The position numbers and the translations under genes are program-made. Positions 14,900 through 35,313 of a stretch of DNA of 42,856 bases are shown in pieces. The stretch is taken from IMG/VR virus record IMGVR_UViG_3300027734_000123, positions 1 to 42,856 of that record; one strand, 5' to 3'. Position 1 is the stretch's first letter. Each line of letters begins with the position of its first letter. Below the pieces are notes generated by a model, which did no database searches, had not been told where the DNA came from, and saw only the letters and a list, made by a program, of their open reading frames with translations. Source of the stretch: a virus.

Positions 14900-15127
14900 T
14901 TACTTGTTAAGATTAACGATTAATTCCTTAATCTTTTGGTCAAGTTTTCTTGATGGCTTTGCTTTACCCGAAAACCAATCATACACCGTTTGCCTTGAAA
15001 CGTTAAGCGCTTTCGCTACTTGACTAGCAGGGTGTTTTAGTGATATGCAGACCGCACCTAAAAGTGTCCCTGTAGTTTCTTTAGCTTTAGCGTTTGCTTC
15101 GATTACTACTTGGGAGTAACCACGCAT
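14900..15127 (-). CDS. Small helix-turn-helix protein
   Basis: 75 residues from the ATG at 15127, two bases after the upstream stop. A longer TTG-started frame to 15139 exists but is less likely. A helix-turn-helix lies at about residues 35-58: ASQVAKALNVSRQTVYDWFSG, in the pattern of Cro/C1 or resolvase-type HTH. It is followed by a basic tail (KAKPSRKLDQKIKELIV). It is the only obvious small DNA-binding regulator in the window and sits between the ssDNA-binding-like gene and the primase. It is a reasonable candidate for the protein that recognises the palindromic operators at the leftward promoters, but this is inference. Confidence 0.72.
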   Translation of the reverse strand: MRGYSQVVIEANAKAKETTGTLLGAVCISLKHPASQVAKALNVSRQTVYDWFSGKAKPSRKLDQKIKELIVNLNK

Positions 15128-15129
15128 GA

Positions 15130-16047
15130 TTACGCCCAATCTGATACTAGATCATCTAAACTTACATCACCTTGGTCTGCTTTAGGTGCCGCTGGTTTAG
15201 GAGGAGGTGGTGGCACAGGTTTTTCTGCTGCACGAACTGTAGGTTCAGGAATATCATCTTCTACTTTAGGTGCGGCTACTTGTGGACGTTGAATAGGTTG
15301 TTGTTTCTTTGTTTCAAACTCTTCACCATCTTCTTTATTAATATTTACTGATAATGTAATAGCACGTTTAGCTTCTTCTGAAGTTGACTTCGTGGCACAT
15401 ACTGCATACTCGTCATCATTAAGAACACGAATAGCTTTAAAGCCAATCTTAGTGCTTGATGAATCTTCATCGAAACTTACACGTGATACAACCGACATTA
15501 AGTTTTGACCATTTGCACGAACATAATCTGTGTATTCATGTAGTGGTTTACAATCTTTTGTACCATTACCAAATATTGATTGTGCAGGTAAAGTCATTTG
15601 ATATACATCACCATTCAAATCATCAGCACGAACAACAGCAATACGTCTACTAAAACGACATGCTTTAGTTCCATTAGCGCCTGAACCTTTAATATTTTGT
15701 GGACATGATAAACAATTTTCTGCTTGCTTTTCTACAACTGCTTCATCAGGTTTTTGGCTATCAGATGTCCAACATGTTGGTGGTGGCATTTTTTCACCTG
15801 GTACATAAGCTTTAGAAAAATACATTCTATGTACATGTGGTGATGCATTAACAATAATTACTTCGAGAGCGTCTTGGTTAGACTTCTCAATCTCTTTACC
15901 ATTAACCATTAATCTAAACTTACCACCACGTATTGATATACGTTTAGCAGTTGATGTGCTTCCTGTAATGTTTGCGGTGAAGCCGTCATCTCTACGTGAA
16001 ACTGTTGATACTGCGGTATTTCCAAATACATCTAATTCTGTACTCAT
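15130..16047 (-). CDS. Putative single-stranded DNA-binding protein with zinc site
   Basis: 305 residues, overlapping the upstream gene by 4 bases (ATGA). The body is predicted beta-rich, and residues about 92-132 hold a cysteine set (CWTSD, CLSC, later KACRF) that could bind zinc, as T4 gp32 does. A proline-rich linker (PVPPPPPKPAAP, about 276-287) leads to an acidic, hydrophobic tip (DVSLDDLVSDWA) like the C-terminal tails of ssDNA-binding proteins that recruit polymerase and primase. The genes around it are primase, helicase and polymerase. No single-domain match can be confirmed by eye; the call rests on the tail, zinc site and context. Confidence 0.6.
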   Translation of the reverse strand: MSTELDVFGNTAVSTVSRRDDGFTANITGSTSTAKRISIRGGKFRLMVNGKEIEKSNQDALEVIIVNASPHVHRMYFSKAYVPGEKMPPPTCWTSDSQKPDEAVVEKQAENCLSCPQNIKGSGANGTKACRFSRRIAVVRADDLNGDVYQMTLPAQSIFGNGTKDCKPLHEYTDYVRANGQNLMSVVSRVSFDEDSSSTKIGFKAIRVLNDDEYAVCATKSTSEEAKRAITLSVNINKEDGEEFETKKQQPIQRPQVAAPKVEDDIPEPTVRAAEKPVPPPPPKPAAPKADQGDVSLDDLVSDWA

Positions 16048-16930: not shown

Positions 16931-18479
16931 TAAACTCCTCTTTATAAAGGTCTACTAATTTAATATGGTGATCAATTTTTCCCTGCAACATCTTATAAAT
17001 TTTTTGTTCAACGGGGGAGCCTTGTAGGTGAACTACGGTCATCTTGTTTTTTTGTCCCGCTCTATCTACACGAGCGCAACATTGTATGTATGTTTCAACA
17101 GACATTACAGGCGACCAAAACACAACTACGTTAGCTGCGTGGAGGGTAACACCATGTGATGCAGCTTGAGGTTGGATCACTAATACTTGAGGGTCTTTTC
17201 TTTCTTGAAAGTTTTTAAATATCTCTGAACGATTATTCATAGACACATCTCCATGTATAGCCGAGCATGTGATATGGTCTTTGTTTAATTCACCCATAAT
17301 CTTTTCTATGCTATGGCGAAAAGGACAAAAGATTAAAACTTTGTGGCTGGCTTCTTCAATGATTTCTTTGAGGGCAGTCATACGATTAGATATATCAAAC
17401 TCTATAACTTCTGATTTATCTGAATAGATAGCACCTGCACTTACTTGTAATAGTTTAGTGAGCATAACCCCTGCATTGACCACAGTAATTTCTTCACCTG
17501 AAGCTTCCATATACATATCTTTTTTAAGCTTCTTGTAATACTTATCTTGTTGTGGTGTGAGGGGAACTTCACGAGTGGTATAAAGAACGTCAGGTAAATC
17601 TAAACATTCTTCTTTAGTATATCGAATGGCAGGTTGTAATGTTTTAAATACAATATCCTGTGCATTAAATCTAGGCACCCAGGTGAACTGGCTGACTTTC
17701 TGCATAACCATATCCTTAAACGTTCCTGCATATTTAGGTACGGATGCGGGGTTCACAAGTCTAGCCAGTCCATATGCGTCAGCTGGTGATTGAGCAGCGG
17801 GTGTTCCTGTCATAAGCCATAACCATGTCTGAGGTGTTACTACACGATTTAATGACTTCCAGCGACGTGTCGTGACAGTCTTGACATAGTTGGCTTCATC
17901 GACAACTATTAAATCAAAACCGCCAGATTTAATTTCTTTCTCTACAATTTCTATGCCGTCATAATTAATTATAACTACATCGGTATTTTCTGCAAATACT
18001 TTTTTTCTTTTCTCAGCACTACCATGAGCAATACCTACTGATCTATGCATAGCAGTTTTAAAGAAGTCTGCTTGCCATGCAGCTTGCATAATAGATAGTG
18101 GGCATACCACTAACATACGTCTAACTTTACCTTGGTTCATTAGGTAATCAGCCGCCCATATGATAGCCGAGGTTTTACCTGTGCCTGCTTCACTTAAACA
18201 ATAGGCACGTCTATGGGCTGATAGAAACTCAGCCGTTGTTCTTTGATGATCAAAGGGTTTATGAATACCTGGAAAGTTATAGTCACGTGTTATAGGTGAC
18301 GGAGGGTTTTTAACTTTCATGTCTGATAAGGTAAGCACTTCATCTAGTCCCCAATTTACAGCTACTTGGGTGACACCATTATCATATGATTTAAGTACCT
18401 TACTTTTAGGTATCTTATCTAATATTAAATCGGGGCGTTTTGTGTTTACAATCAACGCTTTATCTTTATATACTTCCAA
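16920..18479 (-). CDS. SNF2/DEAD-type superfamily 2 helicase
   Basis: 519 residues. Motif I is SEAGTGKTS (Walker A at 97-103), motif II VVDEANY (D194-N197), motif III LMTGTPA. The C-terminal helicase lobe shows KVLIFCPFRHS, IHGDVS, QPQAASHGVTLHAAN and ARVDRAGQKNKM, the typical end of SNF2-family enzymes. It should use ATP to move along or remodel DNA, for example in replication, repair or recombination. A 145-base leader with unusual inverted repeats separates it from the upstream HNH gene. Start at 18479 is preceded by CACTAGGAGATTGC, a good ribosome site. Confidence 0.88.
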   Translation of the reverse strand: MEVYKDKALIVNTKRPDLILDKIPKSKVLKSYDNGVTQVAVNWGLDEVLTLSDMKVKNPPSPITRDYNFPGIHKPFDHQRTTAEFLSAHRRAYCLSEAGTGKTSAIIWAADYLMNQGKVRRMLVVCPLSIMQAAWQADFFKTAMHRSVGIAHGSAEKRKKVFAENTDVVIINYDGIEIVEKEIKSGGFDLIVVDEANYVKTVTTRRWKSLNRVVTPQTWLWLMTGTPAAQSPADAYGLARLVNPASVPKYAGTFKDMVMQKVSQFTWVPRFNAQDIVFKTLQPAIRYTKEECLDLPDVLYTTREVPLTPQQDKYYKKLKKDMYMEASGEEITVVNAGVMLTKLLQVSAGAIYSDKSEVIEFDISNRMTALKEIIEEASHKVLIFCPFRHSIEKIMGELNKDHITCSAIHGDVSMNNRSEIFKNFQERKDPQVLVIQPQAASHGVTLHAANVVVFWSPVMSVETYIQCCARVDRAGQKNKMTVVHLQGSPVEQKIYKMLQGKIDHHIKLVDLYKEEFNDV

Positions 18480-25996: not shown

Positions 25997-26527
25997 TTAA
26001 TTATATGACAAGATTTCGTAAACTTTTACAGGCACTACACCTAGCGTTCTATTTTGTAACCCTGTTAAAAAGTCTTCTACTTCTTTGGGTAATTCTTGAT
26101 CTACTTTCATAGCTTTTTTAACGATCTTTTTGTAATCTTTTAATCTATACGACGACATACTTCCGTTAGGCTTTTGTTCTTCTGCCGCTTTAATTGTTTC
26201 ATCGAGCGCTTGCATAGTCCATGAGGCTTGTTCAGCATCTAATTTAAGCATTGACGCGGCTTCTTTTATGGTTGTAAAAAAAGAATGACCGTTGGGAATG
26301 TCTCTCCATCTAAACTCATAGCTATCATAAACAAAGTGGGGAAAATCATGCCCTTTCCTAATCCATCTAGCTAAGTGTGCAGTCATAGAGTTACCCCTAG
26401 AAATACACCCTGTTCTTAATTGCTTAACTACATTCTTAATCTGTCTATCTGTAAACTTATTAAAGTCAATGTTCATGACTATACTTTCTGCGTAGTTCGT
26501 TAGTTCATTTGAAATATTTAATGACAT
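25997..26527 (-). CDS. Hypothetical protein after leader hairpin
   Basis: 176 residues from the ATG at 26527; the site GAGGAGAAAAGAA precedes it, so the in-frame ATG at 26542 is less likely. Helical N-terminus (TDRQIKNVVKQLRTG), a central aromatic part (GHDFPHFVYDSYEFRWRD), and a Lys-rich helix (LKDYKKIVKKAMK). The 32-bp leader hairpin shared by five genes lies 21 bases upstream. It sits between the VWA gene and the small genes that lead to DUF3150. Not recognised. Confidence 0.62.
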   Translation of the reverse strand: MSLNISNELTNYAESIVMNIDFNKFTDRQIKNVVKQLRTGCISRGNSMTAHLARWIRKGHDFPHFVYDSYEFRWRDIPNGHSFFTTIKEAASMLKLDAEQASWTMQALDETIKAAEEQKPNGSMSSYRLKDYKKIVKKAMKVDQELPKEVEDFLTGLQNRTLGVVPVKVYEILSYN

Positions 26528-26548: not shown

Positions 26549-26580
26549 ACGACAAACGTATAATGTTATACGCTTGTCGC
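26549..26580 (-). promoter_or_regulatory. Leader hairpin copy 1 (32 bp)
   Basis: On the minus strand GCGACAA ... CGTATAA CA TTATACG ... TTGTCGT. It is 32 bases long with one internal mismatch, lies 21 bases before the start at 26527 and just after the stop of the VWA gene. It is one of five leaders of the same length and outer arms. Confidence 0.75.
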
Positions 26581-26584
26581 TTGG

Positions 26585-27742
26585 TTAGTCTTGTATATGT
26601 ATTGTCTTACCATGTGGTGATGTATTGTGACGTGATGTGACTGCCCATAGTGTAGGGTAATCCCAATTACCACCCCAATCATTCTCCACATAACCATCTG
26701 TTAATACAATGATAGCCTCGGGTTCGAGTCGTTTATCTTTGATATACTCATTGACGCATCCGACACGAGTGCCACCACCTCCTGCAGGTTTTGTTGTTTG
26801 AACCAAGGCATTGTAATCACCTTGATTGTATGTTTCATGTCCTGCAACATGAGAATCCCAATACAATAACTCTATACTTGATGGGGATACATCATCACAT
26901 ATAGCTACCACTTCGGTTAAGAATTCATTAAGTTCCTTGTTACCAATAGAACCTGATGTATCTATACCTACTACAACTTTACCTATTGATTCACCTATCA
27001 TGCTAGGCATGTAGATGTCTTGACCTAAGAATCTTTTGTGTGGTCGTTTCCATGAGGTCTTATCTTTGTTCTTACATGTAGCATTGACAAACTCACGCAA
27101 CTGTTCACGCCAATCTACCTTAGGTTCAAGTAACTCACTAATACTTCTATTCTTATTACCATTCATCTTGCCACGAATAATCTCACCTTGTCGCAAGGCT
27201 TGATCTATCTGCTTAACAGTCTCTTTAACTTCTTCATCAGACAAAGCCTCAGCACCTTCCCAATCATGGCTATCGTGACCTTCTTGACCACTACCTCCAT
27301 TCTGCTCGTTATCTTTCTTAAGCAGATCAAAGATTTGTTTGGTCGTCATGTTTTTATATTGTGGGTCAAACAATGCTGACTGTGGCTTGATAGCTACTTG
27401 TTGCGTACCATCAGCTTCATGTATCGCATTGTTCACAACAAAGTCAGCCGCCATGTTTGCAAGCATGGGATTTTCTTTCCATAGCTTTTTCCATAGGTGC
27501 ATATGTTGATACACTTTATGTAAGGCTTCATGTAGCACGACAAAGTTTAACTCCTTATCAGTCAATGACTTAATAAACTCGGGGTTATACATGACATCAC
27601 GACCATTGGTGCAAGCCGTAGGTATATCCTCTGTAAAGTTTACCTTGCCCACCGATAACACGCCTGCAAACATACAGAATTCCTTGCTACGCATTATCGC
27701 TATGTGGGACTTCGTTACTCTTTGTTCACTCGTTAGTGCCAT
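26585..27742 (-). CDS. VWA / metallopeptidase-like protein (DUF2201-type)
   Basis: 385 residues. The N-terminal half has a zinc-peptidase-like FVVLHEALHKVYQH (H71, E72, H75), as in the DUF2201 N-terminal domain. The C-terminal half is a von Willebrand A domain with metal-binding DTSGS (261-265), the TRVG region near 325, and LTDG (347-350). A charged linker (about 140-200) joins them. VWA proteins of this kind act with MoxR/CobS-type AAA ATPases, here the gene at 27857. AAGGAGAGACGAG precedes the start. The small gene upstream overlaps this one by 17 bases. Confidence 0.87.
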   Translation of the reverse strand: MALTSEQRVTKSHIAIMRSKEFCMFAGVLSVGKVNFTEDIPTACTNGRDVMYNPEFIKSLTDKELNFVVLHEALHKVYQHMHLWKKLWKENPMLANMAADFVVNNAIHEADGTQQVAIKPQSALFDPQYKNMTTKQIFDLLKKDNEQNGGSGQEGHDSHDWEGAEALSDEEVKETVKQIDQALRQGEIIRGKMNGNKNRSISELLEPKVDWREQLREFVNATCKNKDKTSWKRPHKRFLGQDIYMPSMIGESIGKVVVGIDTSGSIGNKELNEFLTEVVAICDDVSPSSIELLYWDSHVAGHETYNQGDYNALVQTTKPAGGGGTRVGCVNEYIKDKRLEPEAIIVLTDGYVENDWGGNWDYPTLWAVTSRHNTSPHGKTIHIQD

Positions 27743-27848
27743 CTCGTCTCTCCTTATAAAATTTATAAGTTACGCTATCATCTGACTCTTCTTGTCGCAA
27801 CCATAGGTATGGACATTGGTTCAGCCATTCTAAAAATTCATCAGTCAT
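27726..27848 (-). CDS. Short conserved ORF (40 aa)
   Basis: Preceded by a very strong ribosome site (CTAGGAGGATAT). The translation begins MTDEFLEWLNQCPYLWLRQ and ends ...YKERRDGTNE, overlapping the VWA gene by 17 bases. The 'FLEWLNQCP' start is a pattern I recall in other phage micro-proteins near replication genes. It lies between the ATPase and VWA genes and fills the gap. Function unknown. Confidence 0.65.
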   Translation of the reverse strand: MTDEFLEWLNQCPYLWLRQEESDDSVTYKFYKERRDGTNE

Positions 27849-27856
27849 ATATCCTC

Positions 27857-28903
27857 CTAGAAGTATTGGTTATTCTTAACTGCCCAATCAATGAATGTCT
27901 TATTGGTTGCGGCTACTTGCTTACGAGACGATGCCATGATGTTAACTGCAAACAATGCTTGTATCTCCATAGGTAGTCGTTGTAAATATGTAAGCCACGC
28001 GTCCATGTGTTGATCTGTAATCGTCATGAGTTCTCGCATGACTAAGATGACACGAGCCGCAGGGTCGCTTGGTAAGTTAGCTTTCTCAGGTTCTTTGTAT
28101 ATACTTTCCTTGGTCGGTAGACCATCAGCCAAACTAAAGTAAGCCGACATATCTCGTGCCGCTGACTCACCTAGTGTGCCTGTCAATGCAACCATCGTGG
28201 TATCTTCACCGAGTGTTACTCTGTTCTTAACGATATGCGATGCTTTCTCTAACGAACGAGGGGATACAAACGCCTCTTGTTGTTTCCTAGGATTGTATAT
28301 ATACATGTTCTCTTTCTGAGAGTCATCTGTATAACACGCTAGTGCATGGGGAAATTGTTTAACCCACGCTACAACTTCGGGTGCTAGGTTGTTATCGATA
28401 GCCCAATTAATCCACTCATCATCGTTTGGATTGCGAACGACAACTGCCGTCAATCTATTCTTGGCATGGGCTTTCATGGTATCACCTACACCATCTGTTG
28501 TTAGGTTGCCTGTTGAATACACGATGCTATCGGGGTGAAACTTCGTGGCACCTAGTCGTCTCTCTAACATGACGGGCAATAACATATTCTTAACGGGTTC
28601 ACTAGCCTTAGTGATCTCATCTAACATAATGATGACAGGCTTGTTGTCATGAATAGCAAAGCGTTCATTCGGATAGAATGTGGTTGTCTTTGTTTCATGG
28701 TTCATGGCAGGCATAGCTAAGTCACCTAAGTCTAAGTCTGCACAATCAATATACACAGGTGTGTGGTCGGGAAACCTAGCACTCAGTGATTTAAGTATTG
28801 ATGACTTACCAATCCCAGGTTGACCTTTGAGATGGACTGTGACATCACGACCTACTGTTGCAATTAATTCTTCTGCTTGTTTCAAACTGATTTCTTGTTG
28901 CAT
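27857..28903 (-). CDS. AAA+ ATPase, MoxR/CobS-like
   Basis: 348 residues. Walker A is GQPGIGKSS (27-35) and Walker B VIIMLDEITKA (D95, E96). A sensor-like STGN lies at about 128-131. The order of the arm segments and length fit MoxR/CobS-type AAA ATPases. These form hexamers that, with a VWA partner, remodel a target protein or insert metal ions. The partner VWA gene is immediately downstream. The leader contains hairpin copy 2 and AAGGAGAGAG before the ATG. Target in this phage is unknown. Confidence 0.88.
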   Translation of the reverse strand: MQQEISLKQAEELIATVGRDVTVHLKGQPGIGKSSILKSLSARFPDHTPVYIDCADLDLGDLAMPAMNHETKTTTFYPNERFAIHDNKPVIIMLDEITKASEPVKNMLLPVMLERRLGATKFHPDSIVYSTGNLTTDGVGDTMKAHAKNRLTAVVVRNPNDDEWINWAIDNNLAPEVVAWVKQFPHALACYTDDSQKENMYIYNPRKQQEAFVSPRSLEKASHIVKNRVTLGEDTTMVALTGTLGESAARDMSAYFSLADGLPTKESIYKEPEKANLPSDPAARVILVMRELMTITDQHMDAWLTYLQRLPMEIQALFAVNIMASSRKQVAATNKTFIDWAVKNNQYF

Positions 28904-28925
28904 GATACTCTCTCCTTAATGTTAA

Positions 28926-28957
28926 GCGACATGGGTATATTTCTATACGCTTGTCGC
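28926..28957 (-). promoter_or_regulatory. Leader hairpin copy 2 (32 bp)
   Basis: Outer arms GCGACA / TGTCGC and an inner GTATA / TATAC. It lies 22 bases before the AAA ATPase start. The last five codons of the upstream gene and its TAG stop (28943) lie inside the hairpin, so this copy overlaps coding sequence. Confidence 0.7.
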
Positions 28958-29806
28958 AGGTTGAACTTCTACTAAAACTTGTGGGTTTTCTAACTTAATT
29001 AACTTATCTAAAAATCTTTTAATCATACCTATGTTGACGTAGTGTATGTATTTATTACTACTACCACCATAAGACCATCGTCTGTGTTGTGTCTGCCTTA
29101 CTAAATGATAATAGGATAGATAAGTTTTATCTTCATCGGCAAACATACTAAGCACACCTTCACCCCCTTTATACTGAGTGAATGGTAATACTTGTTTTTG
29201 TAACTCTTCATCTACTTCAACACCTTCATCATTTAATTTCAACATAGTGTCTGCATACTTCAATAACTTCTTGTATGGCTTACGCAACTCACGCATCTGA
29301 CTTGCATCAAACTTATACTTAACAGGTGTTTCAAATTGTGTTTCGTCTAATGGTTTACCCTCATAATCAAACTTATACCAATCGTAAGCGTTCAGGTCAT
29401 ACCGACCATACCTATTATTTATATAACATTCTATTTGATTGTTTTTTACCATTGGACTTCTTGTAAATGGCGCAGGCACATACTTCTTATGTTCAAACGG
29501 ATACAAGGCTACCCCACCCATATAACTTACAAAATATTCTGTGCTTGTAGATGGATAACCACCTAGCGTTATCTCTTTGTGTGTTGGATAGTATCTAACC
29601 AAGTCGGTGTCATAATATCCTGCAACATAAACTTCAACGCCATCTTTGATCTCTTGTCTTAACCATTTCTCTTTCTCGTATCTATCACCCAATCTACGAA
29701 CTGATTGGTTCTCACCACGAACTGCTTTAGTATTTTTAAAATACTCTTGCGCTTCAGTATAGTTTCCTATACGGCGCATGTTATAAACATTAATATGAAA
29801 TCCCAC
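28943..29806 (-). CDS. Hypothetical protein, first gene after promoter
   Basis: 287 residues from a GTG at 29806, chosen because GAGGAG lies 7 bases upstream; the ATG at 29821 overlaps that site. The protein is rich in Tyr, Lys and Arg (DTDLVRYYPTHKEITLGGYP, EHKKYVPAPFTRSP) and has a helical block near 170-200 (MRELRKPYKKLLKYADTM). No known motif is seen. It is the first gene of the transcript that starts at the 29901-29929 promoter. The C-terminus reads into leader hairpin copy 2. Not recognised; a DNA- or RNA-binding role is possible from its charge. Confidence 0.62.
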   Translation of the reverse strand: MGFHINVYNMRRIGNYTEAQEYFKNTKAVRGENQSVRRLGDRYEKEKWLRQEIKDGVEVYVAGYYDTDLVRYYPTHKEITLGGYPSTSTEYFVSYMGGVALYPFEHKKYVPAPFTRSPMVKNNQIECYINNRYGRYDLNAYDWYKFDYEGKPLDETQFETPVKYKFDASQMRELRKPYKKLLKYADTMLKLNDEGVEVDEELQKQVLPFTQYKGGEGVLSMFADEDKTYLSYYHLVRQTQHRRWSYGGSSNKYIHYVNIGMIKRFLDKLIKLENPQVLVEVQPATSV

Positions 29807-29831
29807 GATAATTCTCCTCATTAAAATATAA

Positions 29832-29863
29832 ACGACAAGGGTATAAAGTTATACGATTGTCGC
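29832..29863 (-). promoter_or_regulatory. Leader hairpin copy 3 (32 bp)
   Basis: Arms ACGACAA / TTGTCGC and GTATAA / TTATAC with a 2-base loop AG. It lies 25 bases before the GTG at 29806 and about 30 bases downstream of the expected transcription start. Confidence 0.78.
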
Positions 29864-29900
29864 TTGGTTGATAAAGCACTACTCTTACTACTTAAATAAT

Positions 29901-29929
29901 AGTATAGCATACTTACTTGACATTGTCAA
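29901..29929 (-). promoter_or_regulatory. Strong sigma-70 promoter with palindromic operator
   Basis: Minus strand TTGACA (29929-29924), spacer of 17, TATACT (29906-29901). A perfect 15-bp palindrome CTTGACATTGTCAAG (29916-29930) covers the -35 box. This is a likely repressor or activator site. It drives the 29806 gene and the AAA-VWA module downstream. Confidence 0.8.
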
Positions 29930-29947
29930 GTCATTAGTCAAATTTTT

Positions 29948-30145
29948 TTACCTACTTTTATGTGATGAATTCAGTCCTTTCAATAGTTCTAAATCAGTCA
30001 CAACAATATAGTTTGACTTCGGCATAGGCACAATACAATGTTTATAATTGAGTGCGTTCTTCTCACCACAACTTAAACATGTTTTATATCCTAGCTTATA
30101 CCTACCATCAGCTATATCACCACCACATTCACATTGATAACTCAT
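29948..30145 (-). CDS. Small zinc-ribbon protein
   Basis: 65 residues from the ATG at 30145, which overlaps the stop of the membrane-tailed gene as ATGA and has GAGGGA before it. The translation starts MSYQCECGGDIADGRYKL and continues YKTCLSCGEKNA, giving a C-C...C-C zinc ribbon. It then has VPMPKSNYIVVTDLELL. The 'KSNY...VTDLELL' end recurs in small phage zinc-ribbon proteins. It is the last gene of the transcription unit before the promoter region at 29.9 kb. Function unknown. Confidence 0.72.
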   Translation of the reverse strand: MSYQCECGGDIADGRYKLGYKTCLSCGEKNALNYKHCIVPMPKSNYIVVTDLELLKGLNSSHKSR

Positions 30146-30405
30146 GGGAATTCCCTCCAAATCAAAAACGCAATGTAAAAAACAATGAACGCATAGATTG
30201 TCCACGACATGTATGTTTCTTGTCTACGGTCATCTCCCGACTGTGGCGTATATGTCCCGCCCCAAGCATCACGAGCAGACCTAGGCGTAGGTAACGATAC
30301 ACTATCAGGTTGAAAGAAACGCCAACCCTTTTTTGCGTTACGCGCAAATACTTTATCTTGCCACGCGTTATATTTGCGTATGGCTCGTCTTTGTTCTTTG
30401 TTCAT
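30142..30405 (-). CDS. Small protein with C-terminal membrane helix
   Basis: 87 residues, AAAGGAAAGTAA upstream. A basic N-terminus (KEQRRAIRKYNAWQDK) and Arg-rich middle (TPRSARDAWGGTY) lead to one C-terminal helix, WTIYAFIVFYIAFLIW (about 68-83). It overlaps the wHTH-like gene upstream by 38 bases. It may be a tail-anchored inner membrane protein. The lysis cassette is nearby, so an accessory lysis role is possible. Confidence 0.6.
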   Translation of the reverse strand: MNKEQRRAIRKYNAWQDKVFARNAKKGWRFFQPDSVSLPTPRSARDAWGGTYTPQSGDDRRQETYMSWTIYAFIVFYIAFLIWREFP

Positions 30406-30580
30406 TTACTTTCCTTTTAGTATGTTCTATGTTAATAAGTCCTACCTTGTGTAGATAGTTTAGTCGCGCATCACAAAGTCCTAACTTGCTACTAATATAT
30501 ATCTTGGTAGCGTTAGGTTTATCTTGTAGTAATTCGTTAACTTTGTGGGCATGACGCCAATCATCTAGCTTGGTATACAT
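30368..30580 (-). CDS. Small winged-helix-like protein
   Basis: 70 residues from the ATG at 30580, which overlaps the preceding stop (TAATG). It begins MYTKLDDWRHAHKVNELL and has a helix-turn-helix-like segment, YISSKLGLCDARLNYLHKVGL (about 31-51), followed by a charged strand and a basic tail (TKRKVNEQRTK). This resembles a small winged-helix DNA-binding domain. The same AHKVNE hexapeptide occurs in the 32065 protein. A transcription regulator is possible but not proven. Confidence 0.6.
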   Translation of the reverse strand: MYTKLDDWRHAHKVNELLQDKPNATKIYISSKLGLCDARLNYLHKVGLINIEHTKRKVNEQRTKTSHTQI

Positions 30581-30759
30581 TAGAATAAACATTCCCCCAC
30601 TAATGACATAACATCTTCTTTAGTTTCTTTAACTACTTCTAGCTTAATGACATTACTCCCTTGATCTTTATGCCATTTGGCTTCACGCACGTTCCACCTA
30701 TGTTTACGTATGATTTCGCCGTCATCATCTACAACTGCATAAGTAAAAGGTAAAGACAT
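30580..30759 (-). CDS. Small hypothetical protein
   Basis: 59 residues from the ATG at 30759, with GGAGGGG eight bases upstream; the longer frame to 30783 is less likely. The sequence (LPFTYAVVDDDGEIIRKH, then WNVREAKWHKDQGSNVIKL) is a compact beta/alpha pattern with a basic middle. It is coupled to the next gene by TAATG. I do not recognise it. Confidence 0.62.
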   Translation of the reverse strand: MSLPFTYAVVDDDGEIIRKHRWNVREAKWHKDQGSNVIKLEVVKETKEDVMSLVGECLF

Positions 30760-30893
30760 TTGATCACCCCTCCAATAAAGCATAGTGATGTAGCTACAAT
30801 TATCCCTAAGACAACTGCCTCTAATTTAGTAGGTGCGTTGTTCAAAGCATTCGAGATGTGATTTAACAAACATGTTATCCCTAACTTCTTCAT
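30729..30893 (-). CDS. Short membrane protein, possible holin-type
   Basis: 54 residues from the ATG at 30893, with AAGGGGAATTGT upstream. It starts MKKLGITCLLNHISN and has a C-terminal hydrophobic helix, VVLGIIVATSLCFIGGVIKC (about 29-48). It overlaps its upstream neighbour by 68 bases, which is unusual, so only one of the two may be expressed in full. Its place near the SleB-type lysin makes a holin or accessory lysis role possible. Confidence 0.42.
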   Translation of the reverse strand: MKKLGITCLLNHISNALNNAPTKLEAVVLGIIVATSLCFIGGVIKCLYLLLMQL

Positions 30894-31020
30894 ACAATTC
30901 CCCTTGCACACACTTTAAGTTCATACTATATTTCTTTTTGGTGCATTTATAAACGCTTGTTGCCATGCCTATACATATACCTAATACAAATACACCTATC
31001 AATACTTTTTTATTTTCCAT
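30826..31020 (-). CDS. Short membrane protein near lysis genes
   Basis: 64 residues from the ATG at 31020, preceded by a strong AAGGAGGAAGAG. An N-terminal helix, VLIGVFVLGICIGMATSVY (about 6-24), is followed by a basic KCTKKKYS and a hydrophilic tail. This is the layout of an inner-membrane anchored protein such as a holin, antiholin or spanin subunit. It follows the lipoprotein gene with an 11-base overlap. The exact role is not clear. Confidence 0.58.
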   Translation of the reverse strand: MENKKVLIGVFVLGICIGMATSVYKCTKKKYSMNLKCVQGELYEEVRDNMFVKSHLECFEQRTY

Positions 31021-31147
31021 CTCTTCCTCCTTGATTTGCATTATCAATGACTGTTTTAATGCCTGCCTGTATCGCTATGTTAGTAGCAACTTCGGCACAC
31101 CCACTACAAACCACTATGAGCATCAGCAAGACACTTGGCAGTATCAT
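31010..31147 (-). CDS. Very short lipoprotein-like ORF (45 aa)
   Basis: An ATG at 31147 opens a frame ending at 31010. It begins MILPSVLLMLIVVCSGCAEV: a hydrophobic signal segment followed by a CSGC site that could be a lipobox. The mature part would be only about 29 residues (VATNIAIQAGIKTVIDNANQ). It overlaps the end of the 31104 gene by 44 bases and the next gene by 11. Such small lipoproteins in lysis cassettes can be outer-membrane spanin subunits (Rz1-like). The ribosome site is weak (AAGGTTCGTAAGA). The lipobox has Cys at -3, which is unusual. Confidence 0.5.
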   Translation of the reverse strand: MILPSVLLMLIVVCSGCAEVATNIAIQAGIKTVIDNANQGGRDGK

Positions 31148-31352
31148 TCTTACGAACCTTAGCAATTTTATGCATATATTTTGCATACTCTTTATCTCCC
31201 ATGTAGTAAGCGAGCAAAGTTCTGAACGCTTGGTTTATCTCATAAAAGTTTGGCTCATCGGGAAAGTTACGGTTTACTATATACCCACTCTTCAACGCTT
31301 CTACCATTACTTCATCTGCTTGGTCATCATTTAATTCAATTAATACTTGCAT
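31104..31352 (-). CDS. Small conserved protein after lysin
   Basis: 82 residues, AAGGAGAGAGAT before the ATG. The sequence begins MQVLIELNDDQADEVMVEAL and continues with a helical part (EINQAFRTLLAYYM, then EYAKYMHKIAKVRKND). It has no membrane segment. It overlaps the SleB-type lysin at its start by 17 bases and hides most of the small lipoprotein's signal segment in another frame. Position beside the lysin is the only hint about function. Confidence 0.65.
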   Translation of the reverse strand: MQVLIELNDDQADEVMVEALKSGYIVNRNFPDEPNFYEINQAFRTLLAYYMGDKEYAKYMHKIAKVRKNDTAKCLADAHSGL

Positions 31353-31719
31353 ATCTCTCTCCTTGTTTATAAAAAATTAAGTTAGACCATTTAACTACGG
31401 GTTCTAGTCTAACCCATGACTTCGGTTTCTTTATAGATGTATCGTGGAAGTTCGTTGCACCATAGCTATAATCTACCTCTAGCCTATGCAATACACGATA
31501 CGCTATATCAAAGTAATGTTGTCTAATTACCGAAGGTGGTTGCGTATTCCCATACCAACTGAATTGATATGGTCGCTTCATTTCAATACACACATTCTTT
31601 TTGTTAAAGTCGGCTCGCCTCATTAATACATAGCCCACTGCTACTTGCGCCTGATGTGGCTCATGAGCAGACTCCATGTATATGGTCGTGGCGAGACAAA
31701 GTAGGGCTTGGTCAATCAT
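31336..31719 (-). CDS. Cell-wall hydrolase, SleB-type endolysin
   Basis: 127 residues with AAAGGAGGTCAGT before the ATG. It carries the Hydrolase_2/SleB pattern: CLATTIYMESAHEPHQAQ with catalytic Glu16, then AVGYVLMRRAD, VCIEMKRPYQFSWYG, GATNFHDTSIKKPKSWV. In the family this is a lytic transglycosylase/amidase-type enzyme that cuts peptidoglycan. There is no clear signal peptide, so a holin is expected, and several small membrane proteins lie just downstream. It should be the main lysin that releases progeny. Confidence 0.83.
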   Translation of the reverse strand: MIDQALLCLATTIYMESAHEPHQAQVAVGYVLMRRADFNKKNVCIEMKRPYQFSWYGNTQPPSVIRQHYFDIAYRVLHRLEVDYSYGATNFHDTSIKKPKSWVRLEPVVKWSNLIFYKQGERYASIN

Positions 31720-31772
31720 ACTGACCTCCTTTATATTTGTTTTTACGAGTTAAATTTAGTCTGTGAAAAGAC

Positions 31773-31814
31773 TTAGAATGTGACGATGCTCACGATGATA
31801 TTGATTTGTTTCAT
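31773..31814 (-). CDS. Possible 13-residue leader peptide
   Basis: A strong ribosome site (AAAGGAGAAATAT) precedes an ATG whose frame encodes only MKQINIIVSIVTF before a stop. A small inverted repeat (AGTCTgtgaaAAGACT) overlaps the stop and follows it. Either it is a leader peptide for the lysin gene or a remnant gene. Low confidence, as 13 codons is little evidence. Confidence 0.25.
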   Translation of the reverse strand: MKQINIIVSIVTF

Positions 31815-31829
31815 ATATTTCTCCTTTGA

Positions 31830-32075
31830 TTAGTCTTCGCAACTGCCATTGACACAGGCTACGTTGTTTAAGATTTCTTCTTCAAGCGAGGCAAGTGCCT
31901 CTTGTTTCTCAATGTCAAGGGCTTTGTCATTGAGTTCGGCATACATATCTGATGTATACGGCTCATACCTTACCACTAACCCTGCCTCAACACAAGCATT
32001 TATGTAGTCATCAAACAAAAACCTTGACACAGTATCCGAGTTAATACTTACTACTAAAGTTATCTTATTGCTCAT
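31830..32075 (-). CDS. Hypothetical protein
   Basis: 81 residues, CAAAGGAGAAAAGA before the ATG, overlapping the upstream gene by 11 bases. A beta start (NKITLVVSINSDTV) is followed by a helix (DYINACVEAGLVVRYE) and an acidic tail with two cysteines (CVNGSC). Not recognised. It lies upstream of the lysin. Confidence 0.62.
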   Translation of the reverse strand: MSNKITLVVSINSDTVSRFLFDDYINACVEAGLVVRYEPYTSDMYAELNDKALDIEKQEALASLEEEILNNVACVNGSCED

Positions 32076-32382
32076 TCTTTTCTCCTTTGTTTAAAAATTC
32101 TACTCCATCATTAAGTAATTTATATTTTTTGCGTGTTATACCATAACCTTTTTCTTCTTCTATCTTATCTATGTATCCTGCTTCACAACATTCATTTAAG
32201 GTTGCATTAATATCATAGTTAAGATTGGCATTATCTACTAAATAATCCCACGCAGTATTTTGAGGTATAGCTTCATGCCCAAACTTAAATAACCAAGTTA
32301 TAAGTAAGTCTTTAAGCTCACTCGGCAATACTTCCATATCTTCCATACGGGTATCTTCGTTAACTTTGTGGGCGTCTGACAT
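32065..32382 (-). CDS. Winged-helix-like protein
   Basis: 105 residues from the ATG at 32382, with AAAGGAAGTATT upstream. It begins MSDAHKVNEDTRMEDMEV. The central part has ELKDLLITWLFKFGHEAIP, INATLNECCEAGYIDKIEEE and YGITRKKYKLLNDG, a pattern of helix-helix-wing as in small transcription or replication regulators. The N-terminal AHKVNE coincides with a DNA motif shared with the origin-like region. Function is not known. Confidence 0.58.
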   Translation of the reverse strand: MSDAHKVNEDTRMEDMEVLPSELKDLLITWLFKFGHEAIPQNTAWDYLVDNANLNYDINATLNECCEAGYIDKIEEEKGYGITRKKYKLLNDGVEFLNKGEKNEQ

Positions 32383-32671
32383 AATACTTCCTTTCTTTAA
32401 TAGAAGTATCCTCACATTTTAAACAGTCTATACACGCATGATCGATTAACAAATCAACATAGTGTCTCTCTTTATACAACACATAACGGAAAAACTCAAG
32501 TTCATGCCTTGCCCAATCTATTAAACGCCGTTCAACTTCGTGGGGCTTGGTCGGTGAGATCTGTTTATACATACGCAACCATTCATTATCGTCAAAGTTA
32601 TCTAGGATAGTTTTAACCCTATACGACTTTAACTGCGTGGTGACATACTCTTTTACTTGGTCTATATTCAT
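32360..32671 (-). CDS. Hypothetical protein
   Basis: 103 residues from the ATG at 32671, which forms an ATGA overlap with the upstream small gene; a TTG start at 32728 is unlikely. It is helical, with VKEYVTTQLKSYRVKTIL and WARHELEFFRYVLYKERHY, and ends with CIDCLKCED, a possible zinc site. It overlaps the 32065 gene by 23 bases. Not recognised. Confidence 0.6.
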   Translation of the reverse strand: MNIDQVKEYVTTQLKSYRVKTILDNFDDNEWLRMYKQISPTKPHEVERRLIDWARHELEFFRYVLYKERHYVDLLIDHACIDCLKCEDTSIKERKYYVRRPQS

Positions 32672-32823
32672 CTTAAAACCATAACTAATAGTAAAAAGAT
32701 ATTGATGCCCACAGATACGACTGTGCAAAATCTTAGTCGTCTGTAGTGCTCTCTTGGTATTGTTGTATATTCTGACATATATATTTCCCTGTCATAACCT
32801 TTATATATTGCTTTTGTTTTCAT
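32668..32823 (-). CDS. Short membrane-tailed ORF (51 aa)
   Basis: AAAAAAGGAGAAATAAA precedes the ATG, which overlaps the stop of the previous small gene as ATGA; its own stop overlaps the next start the same way. The translation begins MKTKAIYKGYDREIYMSEY, has a basic middle (PREHYRRLRFC) and ends with a hydrophobic segment, VSVGINIFLLLVMVLR. This suggests a C-terminal membrane helix. It fills a gap that has no listed gene. Function unknown. Confidence 0.58.
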   Translation of the reverse strand: MKTKAIYKGYDREIYMSEYTTIPREHYRRLRFCTVVSVGINIFLLLVMVLR

Positions 32824-32990
32824 TTTATTTCTCCTTTTTTAATTAATTCTATTGCTTCTTCTTGATACTCTAATATAGTGTCGGTGTCTGCCCACTGAAC
32901 AAGCATTTCTAAGTGCATGCCATAGGCTTCTTCATCACCTTTAGCTTCAGCTAACATTGCTTTACCTAAATGTTCTACTATCGGGTTCAT
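32820..32990 (-). CDS. Short acidic ORF (56 aa)
   Basis: Linked by ATGA on both sides. The translation begins MNPIVEHLGKAMLAEAKGDE and continues with an acidic helix, AYGMHLEMLVQWADTDT, ending EEAIELIKKGEIK. It is soluble and helical, with AAAAGGGGAACAAA before the ATG. Function unknown, but the unbroken overlap chain argues it is translated. Confidence 0.6.
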   Translation of the reverse strand: MNPIVEHLGKAMLAEAKGDEEAYGMHLEMLVQWADTDTILEYQEEAIELIKKGEIK

Positions 32991-33139
32991 TTTGTTCCCC
33001 TTTTATTAATAGCGACTTTAGTATTAAAATATTCCAATGTCGTCTGACTGCCTTTCTGATAACCTACACGATAGGCAACATAACAACCATAAGCCAACAA
33101 CAATAACATTTGCAAAAAGATATAAGTAATATCACTCAT
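32987..33139 (-). CDS. Short membrane ORF (50 aa)
   Basis: Starts with ATGA after GGGAGGAAACACA. The translation begins MSDITYIFLQMLLLLAYGCY, one N-terminal membrane helix, followed by VAYRVGYQKGSQTTLEYF and a basic end. It could be an inner-membrane phage protein. Both ends are ATGA overlaps. Confidence 0.58.
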   Translation of the reverse strand: MSDITYIFLQMLLLLAYGCYVAYRVGYQKGSQTTLEYFNTKVAINKRGTK

Positions 33140-33312
33140 TGTGTTTCCTCCCAAATTGATTTGAATTCATAATTCTTTTTATCGTCATACGATAAACTAT
33201 CAAAGGCTAAATCAATAGCCGTTTCTTTTGTACTAGCTTCTTCTTTAGGTATAGCCACATTGATTGTGACTGTCTTTTCAAACTCTACAACCCAAACTTT
33301 AATATCACTCAT
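33136..33312 (-). CDS. Short hypothetical ORF (58 aa)
   Basis: Begins MSDIKVWVVEFEKTVTINV after AGAGAGGACTCAAA and overlaps both neighbours as ATGA. It has a beta-strand pair at the N-terminus and an acidic helix with EEASTKETAIDLAF. It is a soluble small protein. Not recognised; expression is supported by the overlaps and the ribosome site. Confidence 0.6.
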   Translation of the reverse strand: MSDIKVWVVEFEKTVTINVAIPKEEASTKETAIDLAFDSLSYDDKKNYEFKSIWEETQ

Positions 33313-33407
33313 TTTGAGTCCTCTCTATCAAACCAAATTAATAAAATGTAACCTGCCAATAGTCCTATACAGGCACCGATAATATACCAATCATAAATAC
33401 TAACCAT
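33309..33407 (-). CDS. Very short membrane ORF (32 aa)
   Basis: An ATG at 33407 overlaps the end of the first gene of this transcript. The translation is MVSIYDWYIIGACIGLL followed by AGYILLIWFDREDSK: a single membrane helix with a charged end. Its stop forms ATGA with the next gene. The short length lowers confidence, but it fills the chain exactly. Confidence 0.5.
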   Translation of the reverse strand: MVSIYDWYIIGACIGLLAGYILLIWFDREDSK

Positions 33408-33603
33408 TATTATTCTCCCATTTATTTTTATTACTAACTGCTCTCATTAGAAAGTCTGTTGCAACGCTAAAATCAACATTGAGGGTTTTGGCTTCATCTC
33501 TATCCCATTCATCGCTAATATAAAACTTGCCGTCAGACTCTTTAATATAACTATCAACTGCATGAGATACATAATTTATATCTCTGATTGATTGGCTGTT
33601 CAT
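33400..33603 (-). CDS. Hypothetical protein, first gene after promoter
   Basis: 67 residues, GAGGAGAAAATA before the ATG. It begins MNSQSIRDINYVSHAVDSY, then has a short aromatic/acidic stretch, KFYISDEWDRDEA, and a helix, ATDFLMRAVSNK. It is the first gene of the transcript from the 33691-33719 promoter and follows leader hairpin copy 4. Being first and strongly led, it is probably made early and in quantity. Function unknown. Confidence 0.65.
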   Translation of the reverse strand: MNSQSIRDINYVSHAVDSYIKESDGKFYISDEWDRDEAKTLNVDFSVATDFLMRAVSNKNKWENNNG

Positions 33604-33622
33604 TATTTTCTCCTCATAAAAA

Positions 33623-33654
33623 GCGACAAGGGTATAAAGTTATACGAATGTCGC
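33623..33654 (-). promoter_or_regulatory. Leader hairpin copy 4 (32 bp)
   Basis: Outer GCGACAA ... TGTCGC and inner GTATAA AG TTATAC. It lies 19 bases before the start at 33603 and 36 bases downstream of the -10 box. Same length and arms as copies 1, 2, 3 and 5. Confidence 0.78.
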
Positions 33655-33690
33655 ATGGTTAATACTGCTTATTTTTCTAGCAGTTTTATA

Positions 33691-33719
33691 AGTATAGCAT
33701 GGGTAACTTACATTGTCAA
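33691..33719 (-). promoter_or_regulatory. Strong sigma-70 promoter for small-gene operon
   Basis: Minus strand TTGACA (33719-33714), 17-base spacer, TATACT (33696-33691). The sequence from -35 to -10 closely matches the 29901-29929 promoter (TTGACAATGT ... ATGCTATACT). The palindrome over the -35 box is only partly kept here (CTTACATTGTCAAG). Confidence 0.8.
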
Positions 33720-33749
33720 GTCATTGTCCACCTTAAAAAGCACCTCTTT

Positions 33750-33969
33750 TATACCCACGAAGTTAACTAAATAGACCTAAAAACAGAGTAACCTTTTTGC
33801 GTTTAGGGAAATCCTCGCCGACTACTCACGAACGAATGGTCATTTTTTATTTTATTAGGGTTTGTCGCCTTGATATTGTCAAGTGTATTCTTGACATTGT
33901 CATGTAATTTTATTAAGTGCTTGATTTTATTGATTTTAGAGAGTGGACTTTGTTAACTTTGTGGGTATA
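33750..33969. repeat. 18-bp inverted repeat pair
   Basis: TATACCCACGAAGTTAAC at 33750-33767 and GTTAACTTTGTGGGTATA at 33952-33969 are inverted copies with one mismatch, 184 bases apart. The enclosed stretch carries two tandem operator-like palindromes. It may form a loop boundary or protein-binding pair. Confidence 0.7.
33869..33904. promoter_or_regulatory. Two tandem operator-like palindromes
   Basis: CTTGATATTGTCAAG (33869-33883) and CTTGACATTGTCATG (33890-33904) each match the 15-bp palindrome over the 29.9-kb promoter with one change. Their centres are 21 bp apart, two turns of DNA, as expected for cooperative dimers. Confidence 0.6.
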
Positions 33970-34469
33970 AAATTACACGATAAGTCTTTGATTATTAAGT
34001 AAAATTACAAGGGTATTTACTTTGTCAAGTATAAAATTACAAGCTAAGTCATTGATTATTCAGTAATAATACAAAATTACATCAAAAACGGCATTGCGCG
34101 AGGCTGGGGAACGAGCAGAGAAAAAATAAAAATCAGTCTAGCCACGAAGTTAAATAAGCTAAAACTAATTTTCCAGACGGGGATACAATTTTACGTGTAA
34201 TAATGTAATTTTATAAAAACTATATATAAATCAATGACTTGTATTTTTATGCTCTTTTTGCTAAGTGCTTGATTATATTATTTAATTACACTAGGCAGAC
34301 AATGTCAACTTTCCTAAGTCATTGATTATATTATTTTAATACACACTGTCCAGTCCTGTTGTAATTTTATAAGACAGTCGTGTAATTTTATAACACGCAT
34401 AAACATGTAGCCACGAAGTTAACTTAGTTAAACAATCCCTCACCCACCCACCTTTTCTATACGGTCATA

Positions 34470-34486
34470 ATTCGGTGGGTCCGAAT
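34470..34486. repeat. Short hairpin near end of repeat region
   Basis: ATTCGG (34470-34475), loop TGGGT, CCGAAT (34481-34486). It competes with a longer pairing of ACCCACC (34446-34452) and GGTGGGT (34474-34480). It lies just beyond the leftward terminator. Confidence 0.5.
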
Positions 34487-34508
34487 ATGTCGCCACGAAA
34501 TTGAGACG

Positions 34509-34540
34509 AAAAAAAAAGGGCTTGAAATTAATCAAGCCCT
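34509..34540 (-). terminator. Rho-independent terminator of the 34570 gene
   Basis: On the minus strand AGGGCTTGA, loop TTAATT, TCAAGCCCT followed directly by eight T. A 9-bp perfect stem with a T-run, 30 bases after the stop of the 34570 gene. It isolates that gene from the origin-like region. Confidence 0.9.
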
Positions 34541-34569
34541 TAACCCTTGTAAAAACTAAGTTAACTTAG

Positions 34570-35190
34570 TTAACTTTGTGATGATTTAAAATCATCTCTG
34601 ATTTTATTGATATTGCTATCAATATACATGGCAAAATCAAGTTCATTTTTTGCTAGATTTTCCATGCTAGTTTTAAAATCTTTTATAAAGTTTTTAGCGT
34701 CTTGCTTTTCTAACTTTTCGGCATTTTTGAGACGTTTTTCTTCACGCTTTGCTAACTCTACAATTTTCCCTTGCGCTTTCAGTTCAGCGTCAGTCATAGC
34801 GTCAATTTTTGCCCTTTGCTCTGATTTTTGCTCTGATTTTACATTAGGGCTTTTTGGTTTTGTCAATTCGTAAGATTTTTCTAGGCATGATGTAATATGC
34901 GTCCAGATATTCTTATCAAAACTCACTTCGTCCATGCCTGTAGCATCACAAACCCCTGCTTTGATAAGTCCATGAATATAGTTCCACGAAGTATAACTAG
35001 GGCTATCAGTCAACGCTAGGGCTACATTTTCAACCAATAACTTAACTAGGTTTCCTCTAGTTTCGTTATAAACATTGTCCATGCTTATAACTTCTAATTG
35101 ATAACCGATAGCGTTGTCAATGTATTCTGATTGAGCCGTTGATAATTCTACAGCATCAATTACAGCACTATTTAAAGTTTTCTTTTTCAT
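34570..35190 (-). CDS. Hypothetical protein, isolated gene beside origin-like region
   Basis: 206 residues; TGAGGATTAAACAAA gives the ribosome site. The N-terminal part (about 1-100) is mixed helical with ALTDSPSYTSWNYIHGLIKAG. The C-terminal half is Lys/Glu-rich and should form a long coiled coil (ELAKREEKRLKNAEKLEKQD, about 142-161). It has its own promoter (35286-35313), leader hairpin copy 5 and terminator (34509-34540), so it is made from a single-gene transcript. This layout next to the repeat region suggests a replication or transcription regulator, but no DNA-binding motif is visible. Not recognised. Confidence 0.65.
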   Translation of the reverse strand: MKKKTLNSAVIDAVELSTAQSEYIDNAIGYQLEVISMDNVYNETRGNLVKLLVENVALALTDSPSYTSWNYIHGLIKAGVCDATGMDEVSFDKNIWTHITSCLEKSYELTKPKSPNVKSEQKSEQRAKIDAMTDAELKAQGKIVELAKREEKRLKNAEKLEKQDAKNFIKDFKTSMENLAKNELDFAMYIDSNINKIRDDFKSSQS

Positions 35191-35220
35191 TTTGTTTAAT
35201 CCTCATGTTATTTAAAAAAA

Positions 35221-35252
35221 GCGACAAAGGTATTAATTAATTCGGTTGTCGC
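35221..35252 (-). promoter_or_regulatory. Leader hairpin copy 5 (32 bp)
   Basis: GCGACAA at 35221-35227 and TTGTCGC at 35246-35252, with an inner TTAATTAA palindrome in place of GTATAA/TTATAC. It lies 30 bases before the 34570 gene. Outer arms and total length match the other copies; the inner stem differs. Confidence 0.72.
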
Positions 35253-35285: not shown

Positions 35286-35313
35286 ATTATACAGGAATTC
35301 TAGACATTGTCAA
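35286..35313 (-). promoter_or_regulatory. Sigma-70 promoter of the 34570 gene
   Basis: Minus strand TTGACA (35313-35308), 16-base spacer, TATAAT (35291-35286). A partial operator half (TTGACAATGTC) follows the -35 box as in the other leftward promoters. Confidence 0.78.

Follow-up and report, generated by a model that had tools for sequence, protein, structure and literature searches.

Genome-specific palindromes before early genes of apparently lytic phages and a covarying 206-residue protein that may read them

Introduction

In Cluster A mycobacteriophages such as L5, Bxb1 and TipsytheTRex, repressor sites that follow one consensus are dispersed over the genome, mostly off promoters and in the short gaps before genes (PMC6550527, PMC9283540). 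These stoperators are 13-bp asymmetric sites oriented with transcription, 20–30 per genome, one of them next to the gene for the repressor itself, and motif and repressor diverge jointly into specificity groups; the repressor, of the L5 gp71 type, has an N-terminal helix-turn-helix (HTH) and, once bound, halts transcription elongation, and the phages are temperate, with an integrase or parABS (PMC6550527, PMC9283540). Here we describe a family of palindromes located before leftward genes in virus record IMGVR_UViG_3300027734_000123 (positions 1–42,856; this whole stretch of 42,856 nucleotides is called the window below) and in its relatives, together with a 206-amino-acid (206-aa) protein encoded at 34570–35190 that probably uses the palindromes as DNA operators.

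Like stoperators, the palindromes stand at several places in a genome, follow a genome-specific consensus, lie mostly away from promoters and just before genes, and include a site at the putative regulator's own gene, and the site motif and the regulator sequence diverge together. Unlike the asymmetric stoperators, they are palindromes of 28–34 bp in which orientation resides only in the flanks (a TAACC-like motif and the Shine-Dalgarno, SD, sequence), and about 3–9 sites, rather than 20–30, were found per record. Unlike the L5 gp71-type repressor, the 206-aa protein showed no detectable HTH or homology (Pfam, PHROG, PDB sequence, structure). No integrase or resolvase domain (tyrosine or serine recombinase; PF00589, PF00239) was found in 17 records, some of about 66 kb, whose completeness is not certified. 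We do not file the system as a member of the stoperator group because these defining features of site and repressor fail.

Genome-dispersed repressor operators are also found in phage P1 (the c1 operators) and in phiC31, whose repressor sites (CIBs) are inverted repeats, as are the sites described here. The phiC31 and P1 sites are shorter and are read by well-known repressors of temperate phages, whereas the present sites are longer and our searches place the 206-aa regulator in none of the described families. In T4-type phages, Arbiol et al. reportedly described in 2010 the PeSLs, early promoters followed by a stem-loop that resembles its counterparts in the same phage and differs from those of other phages. 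The palindromes here resemble PeSLs in this combination of promoter and stem-loop and in its distribution but, going by that definition, differ from them in that many copies are intercistronic and lack a promoter, and in that the arms appear to act as DNA half-sites. To our knowledge, PeSLs have no regulator that covaries with them. When the open literature was searched for comparable systems, only the work on stoperators was found.

Results

The initial annotation of the window had reported five 32-nt hairpins, each in front of a leftward gene, and all five were confirmed (Table 1). On the minus strand, which is the coding strand of the downstream genes, their consensus is GCGACAA-NN-GTATAA-NN-TTATAC-NN-TTGTCGC with small changes per copy; the outer arms GCGACAA and TTGTCGC, originally given for all copies, are both exact in copy 5, and each of copies 1–4 has one arm mismatch. 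When up to three mismatches were allowed, the arm pattern matched six times in the window (the five copies and an unrelated match at 17316) versus 0.75 expected, and 0 of 100 dinucleotide shuffles of the window gave six matches; the five palindromes are real and non-random. A sixth, degenerate copy (33012–33043) had been overlooked, and its position is conserved in relatives. The inner stems of copy 5 and of the sixth copy are mismatched, and the mismatch is kept in relatives. With SD-consistent starts (26527, 28903, 29806, 33603 and 35190), copies 1–5 lie 21, 22, 25, 19 and 30 nt before a start codon, in agreement with the 19–30 nt first reported. The three copies said to lie below consensus promoters do so: on the minus strand, the −10 box precedes copy 3 by 37 nt, copy 4 by 36 nt and copy 5 by 33 nt, and the promoters concerned (at 29929, 33719 and 35313) are near-perfect and belong to the four top-ranking ones of the region. 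The starts at 26527 and 29806 lie downstream of those of the longest open reading frames (26542 and 29821), and the longer frames would cross the SD. We rejected the palindromes as terminators, since a long T run follows only copies 4 and 5.

Scans of viral contigs with the VWA protein (26585–27742) and with the MoxR-like ATPase returned 70 and 66 relatives, respectively, and 36 records of related uncultivated phages were retrieved in full or almost in full (designated G plus a number where they need to be told apart). The initial annotation had named absence of the hairpins from homologous leaders of related phages as the observation that would speak against it; palindromes of 28–34 bp were present in homologous leaders of most of the 36 records, but their sequence was genome-specific, which had not been foreseen. 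The 182 copies that we tabulated, of which 154 are unique, fall into 18 classes; at least six further classes were seen, which gives at least 24. Class A palindromes, the type of the window, are confined to close relatives of the window phage, and most other relatives carry in the homologous leaders a differing palindrome that is common to the other leaders of that genome (e.g., class B, GTGACAAAGTTATNNNNTTATAACNNTGTCAC; class C, GAACANTCTTACTNNNNAGTAAGANTGTTC; class J, GAACAAATGGCTANNNTAGCCATTTGTTC, 29 bp; class K, TGTGAATANCTCACGCAATCGTGAGGTNTTCACA, 34 bp); the matrix of class versus genome is almost diagonal. Palindrome identity was 80% among unrelated leaders of one genome versus 43% among homologous leaders of different genomes. 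By comparison, the MoxR gene next to such a leader was 83% identical between genomes over its first 60 nt. Site length is constant within a genome, and only the arms are common to its copies, which vary in spacer, loop and flanks.

An SD and a start codon follow within 45 nt in 112 of the 154 unique copies, across which the typical spacing is 7–8 nt from palindrome to SD and 18–22 nt to the start. A good promoter stands upstream at about 55 of 146 scored sites, most commonly with 36–38 nt between the −10 box and the palindrome, and 58 of the 146 have an SD and no promoter. Few G residues occur in the upstream flank, which terminates in a TAACC-like motif regardless of class. The recurrence of palindromes in the same leaders of relatives, the constant length within a genome and the narrow SD spacing support the early-gene regulon that had been proposed and the accompanying suggestion that something measures the hairpins. 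No palindromes were seen in G020, G024 and G034, the contigs of which stop short of the regulator region. Five isolates with related terminases (DSL-LC04, HTVC027P, HTVC023P, 023Pt_psg01 and Pag-Yong1) served as a negative control, and no comparable family of pre-gene palindromes was found in the first 50 kb of each. An exact-arm pattern scan of viral contigs yielded mostly unrelated single matches and was useful for class A relatives only; viral contigs L009, L032, L071, L079, L105 and L118 each carry a single near-perfect 32-bp hairpin with the same outer arms (e.g., GCGACAAGCTAGACGGCCGTCTAGCTTGTCGC).

The gene directly behind copy 5 encodes the fast-evolving 206-aa protein. Its family is present in 20 records, nearly always with an own-class site at the 5′ end of the gene, and the gene was found in 18 of the 18 records that have a large terminase gene. 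In a partial Mantel test of protein distances against operator distances, with core-gene distances controlled and the gene's own site excluded, the 206-aa protein gave r = 0.54 (p = 0.0005), and 0.46 (p = 0.0005) when only between-class pairs were used; the next-best of the 37 gene families reached 0.31. Most of this covariation is carried by the N-terminal 112 residues, and for the inner box it was 0.42 for the N-terminal domain versus 0.18 for the C-terminal part. A cognate protein of the 206-aa type is in hand for 13 of the at least 24 operator classes. AlphaFold modeled the full-length protein as all-helical (predicted local distance difference test, pLDDT, 84; predicted template modeling score, pTM, 0.52) and the N-terminal domain as four helices (pLDDT 89; pTM 0.81). 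Helices three and four of some members (e.g., LPSTASNYSKEVVAILK) look HTH-like to us, an impression with no tool result in support. We also observed an own-class palindrome within the first regulator codons in classes J and F (G028, 2211; G033, about 512; G019, 15238; RNA-sense coordinates).

One relative, G006 (IMGVR_UViG_3300032216_000564; L136, L269, L270), can be regarded from its sequence as a natural experiment in which swapped sites accompany a different version of the 206-aa protein. The HTH, VWA and MoxR proteins of G006 are 97–99% identical to those of the window, and four of its sites belong to class K instead of class A, the flanks of several leaders being largely conserved. When the DNA of the window and of G006 is aligned, the 206-aa gene lies within a gap, and the window's 206-aa protein is 25% identical to that of G006 versus 61–70% to those of class A phages. 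G006 is possibly a snapshot of a specificity switch. Two other genes were considered and rejected. A 79-aa HTH protein (window 14900–15139), conserved in 30 of 37 related records, was dismissed as the reader of the palindromes because it is 98–99% identical in G006 despite the swapped sites, and gene 25997–26527 was dismissed as a covarying partner because it is only 39% identical in the class A phage G014 and its partial Mantel correlation is about 0.

Phage DSL-LC04 and the Pelagibacter phages HTVC027P and HTVC023P have terminases with about 50% identity to that of the window; a DNA similarity search against phage isolates found none. No relatives were found in bacterial genome contigs either, and because of this and of the negative recombinase search the group looks lytic. 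Beside the regulator gene, window positions 33700–34515 form about 800 bp of non-coding, repeat-rich DNA (GTAATTTTATAA / ATTTTACAAG, AAGTCATTGATTATATTATT, GCCACGAAGTTAACTTAG), possibly a replication origin, and similar repeats also follow the regulator gene in G031 (64070–64200). Repeats of GCCACGAAGTTAA at window 33750, 34137 and 34406 resemble half of the class M palindrome TAACATTGTGGCAAGTTTGCCACGAAGTTA (G021/G022).

Table 1. Palindromes, promoters and putative regulator gene in the window
Feature	Coordinates	Strand	Remarks
Palindrome copy 1	26549–26580	−	Intercistronic, between VWA gene and gene 25997–26527; position conserved, class K in G006
Palindrome copy 2	28926–28957	−	Intercistronic; before MoxR-like ATPase gene, overlaps end of gene 28943–29806
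Palindrome copy 3	29832–29863	−	Leader of gene 28943–29806; class K in G006
Degenerate sixth copy	33012–33043	−	Before gene 32820–32990; same position in G006, G016, G036, G037
Palindrome copy 4	33623–33654	−	Leader of gene 33400–33603
Palindrome copy 5	35221–35252	−	Leader of putative regulator gene; proposed autoregulatory site
206-aa orphan protein, putative regulator reading the palindromes	34570–35190	−	Strongest covariation among 37 families; all-helical model
Promoter TTGACA-17-TATACT, copy 3 leader	29901–29929	−	
Promoter TTGACA-17-TATACT, copy 4 leader	33691–33719	−	
Promoter TTGACA-16-TATAAT, regulator gene	35286–35313	−	
Intrinsic-terminator-like hairpin and T run, after regulator gene	34516–34541	−	

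Discussion

We propose that the palindromes are the dispersed DNA operators of the 206-aa protein, which is probably an autoregulated regulator, likely a repressor, acting in the leaders of early genes. The regulator gene would be a single-gene unit, and because it has its own near-perfect promoter, an operator (copy 5) and a terminator, the regulator is expected to control itself. A symmetric form of the protein, presumably a dimer, would read two half-sites, each consisting of an outer and an inner box. Most sites lie in the transcribed leader, either about 30 bp past the start point or in the gap between two cotranscribed genes, and the ribosome-binding site follows closely; because of this location, the likeliest action would be a stoperator-like block of RNA polymerase at the leader operator, by which the early genes would be repressed. 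Regulator and operators have diversified together into the at least 24 classes, and cross-repression between co-infecting phages (homo-immunity) is an attractive candidate for the driver. This explanation accounts for the observations, including the concerted replacement and the mixed state of sites in G006.

It is quite probable, as judged from the sequences, that DNA rather than RNA is the active form of the palindromes: DNA operators are favored because the arms vary independently without G-U preference and because a few sites precede a −35 box. Within classes, one-sided changes affected 132 stem pairs (87 transversion mismatches, 25 A-C and 20 G-U); another 21 pairs differed at both positions, and of these 13 had regained Watson-Crick pairing. 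The initial annotation had proposed looking for such compensatory changes, and re-dealing the right-hand letters among copies gave 8.7 ± 2.3 as the expected number. Unlike in RNA cis-regulatory hairpins, no compensatory excess dominates, G-U pairs are not favored over A-C, contrary to the expectation for RNA pairing, and an Rfam scan of the window gave no family match. For classes J and M, the site of the regulator gene lies 12–13 bp upstream of that gene's −35 box (G028, G033, G022), and further palindrome copies were found after the regulator stop codon or inside its coding region. Among the mechanisms first offered for the hairpins, operators are favored by the one-sided arm changes and by the sites upstream of −35, and RNase sites and translation switches, although conceivable for hairpins that would fold in RNA, find no support.

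An unlikely alternative, though the most probable of those considered, is an RNA operator: the hairpin in the leader mRNA, just ahead of the SD, would be bound by the 206-aa protein or by a different factor, which would thereby control translation or mRNA decay and whose RNA specificity would coevolve with the hairpins. The sites do end at the edge of the ribosome footprint, 7–8 nt before the SD, also at promoterless intercistronic copies, the flanks are G-poor and oriented, and the protein covariation would fit equally well. Against this, the stem sequence itself is conserved within a genome, beyond mere pairing, the arm changes are mostly one-sided and break pairs, copy 5 and the sixth copy keep mismatched inner stems in relatives, and sites upstream of the regulator's −35 box or after its stop codon would not be expected.

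Several observations count against the operator explanation, some of them in favor of RNA. The compensated changes are in slight excess over the null, and the transcribed-leader location, the narrow SD distance and the TAACC-like flanks suit an RNA target as well. The transcripts are predicted to fold stably (−6 to −18 kcal/mol; z-scores −3 to −7.5), and because they would fold in any case, RNA stability does not decide between DNA and RNA. The 206-aa protein has no worthwhile Pfam or PHROG match and no PDB sequence match, and structure searches with its full-length and N-terminal models gave no match with E < 0.001, so that an independent sign of DNA binding is absent. Two class A-like sites persist in G006 beside its class K sites, and the concerted change is therefore incomplete. 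Site length between classes (28–34 bp, one class odd) is more variable than a rigid dimer suggests, and the classes and thresholds were defined by us from the same data.

It is improbable that the palindromes are recombination cassettes, that is, PeSL-like promoter-hairpin units that are homogenized by gene conversion and aid module shuffling, with the 206-aa gene merely linked to one of them. Many copies do follow near-consensus promoters at similar spacing, similarity within a genome is high, and the leaders of several genes are swapped in G006; but only the arms are common among the copies of one genome, more than fifty of the scored sites have an SD and no promoter, and such units would not predict covariation of the regulator with distant sites. 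Still less probable is that a host factor or another phage protein reads the operators and that the 206-aa protein is a fast-evolving regulated target, a possibility raised by its lack of a recognized DNA-binding domain and by the conserved phage HTH protein, since near-identical phages would not be forced to differ in sequence by a host protein, the HTH protein keeps 98% identity in G006 in spite of the swapped sites, and no other family among the 37 covaries comparably.

With the operator explanation, the at least 24 classes (for 13 of which the cognate protein is in hand) and one hybrid phage carrying old and new sites together would represent whole operator sets switching specificity with their regulator, which are rarely caught in so many states. 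Because so many class states are at hand, short DNAs and small proteins suffice for direct tests of how transcription-factor specificity evolves. More tentatively, the 206-aa protein may belong to a new DNA-binding regulator family that has an unrecognized all-helical fold and defines dozens of immunity-like specificity groups in apparently strictly lytic phages, in which each phage would limit its own early genes and those of like-coded competitors, and operators and regulator would diversify under frequency-dependent selection. If it is true that the system gives immunity in phages without lysogeny genes, repressor-based immunity would extend beyond temperate phages.

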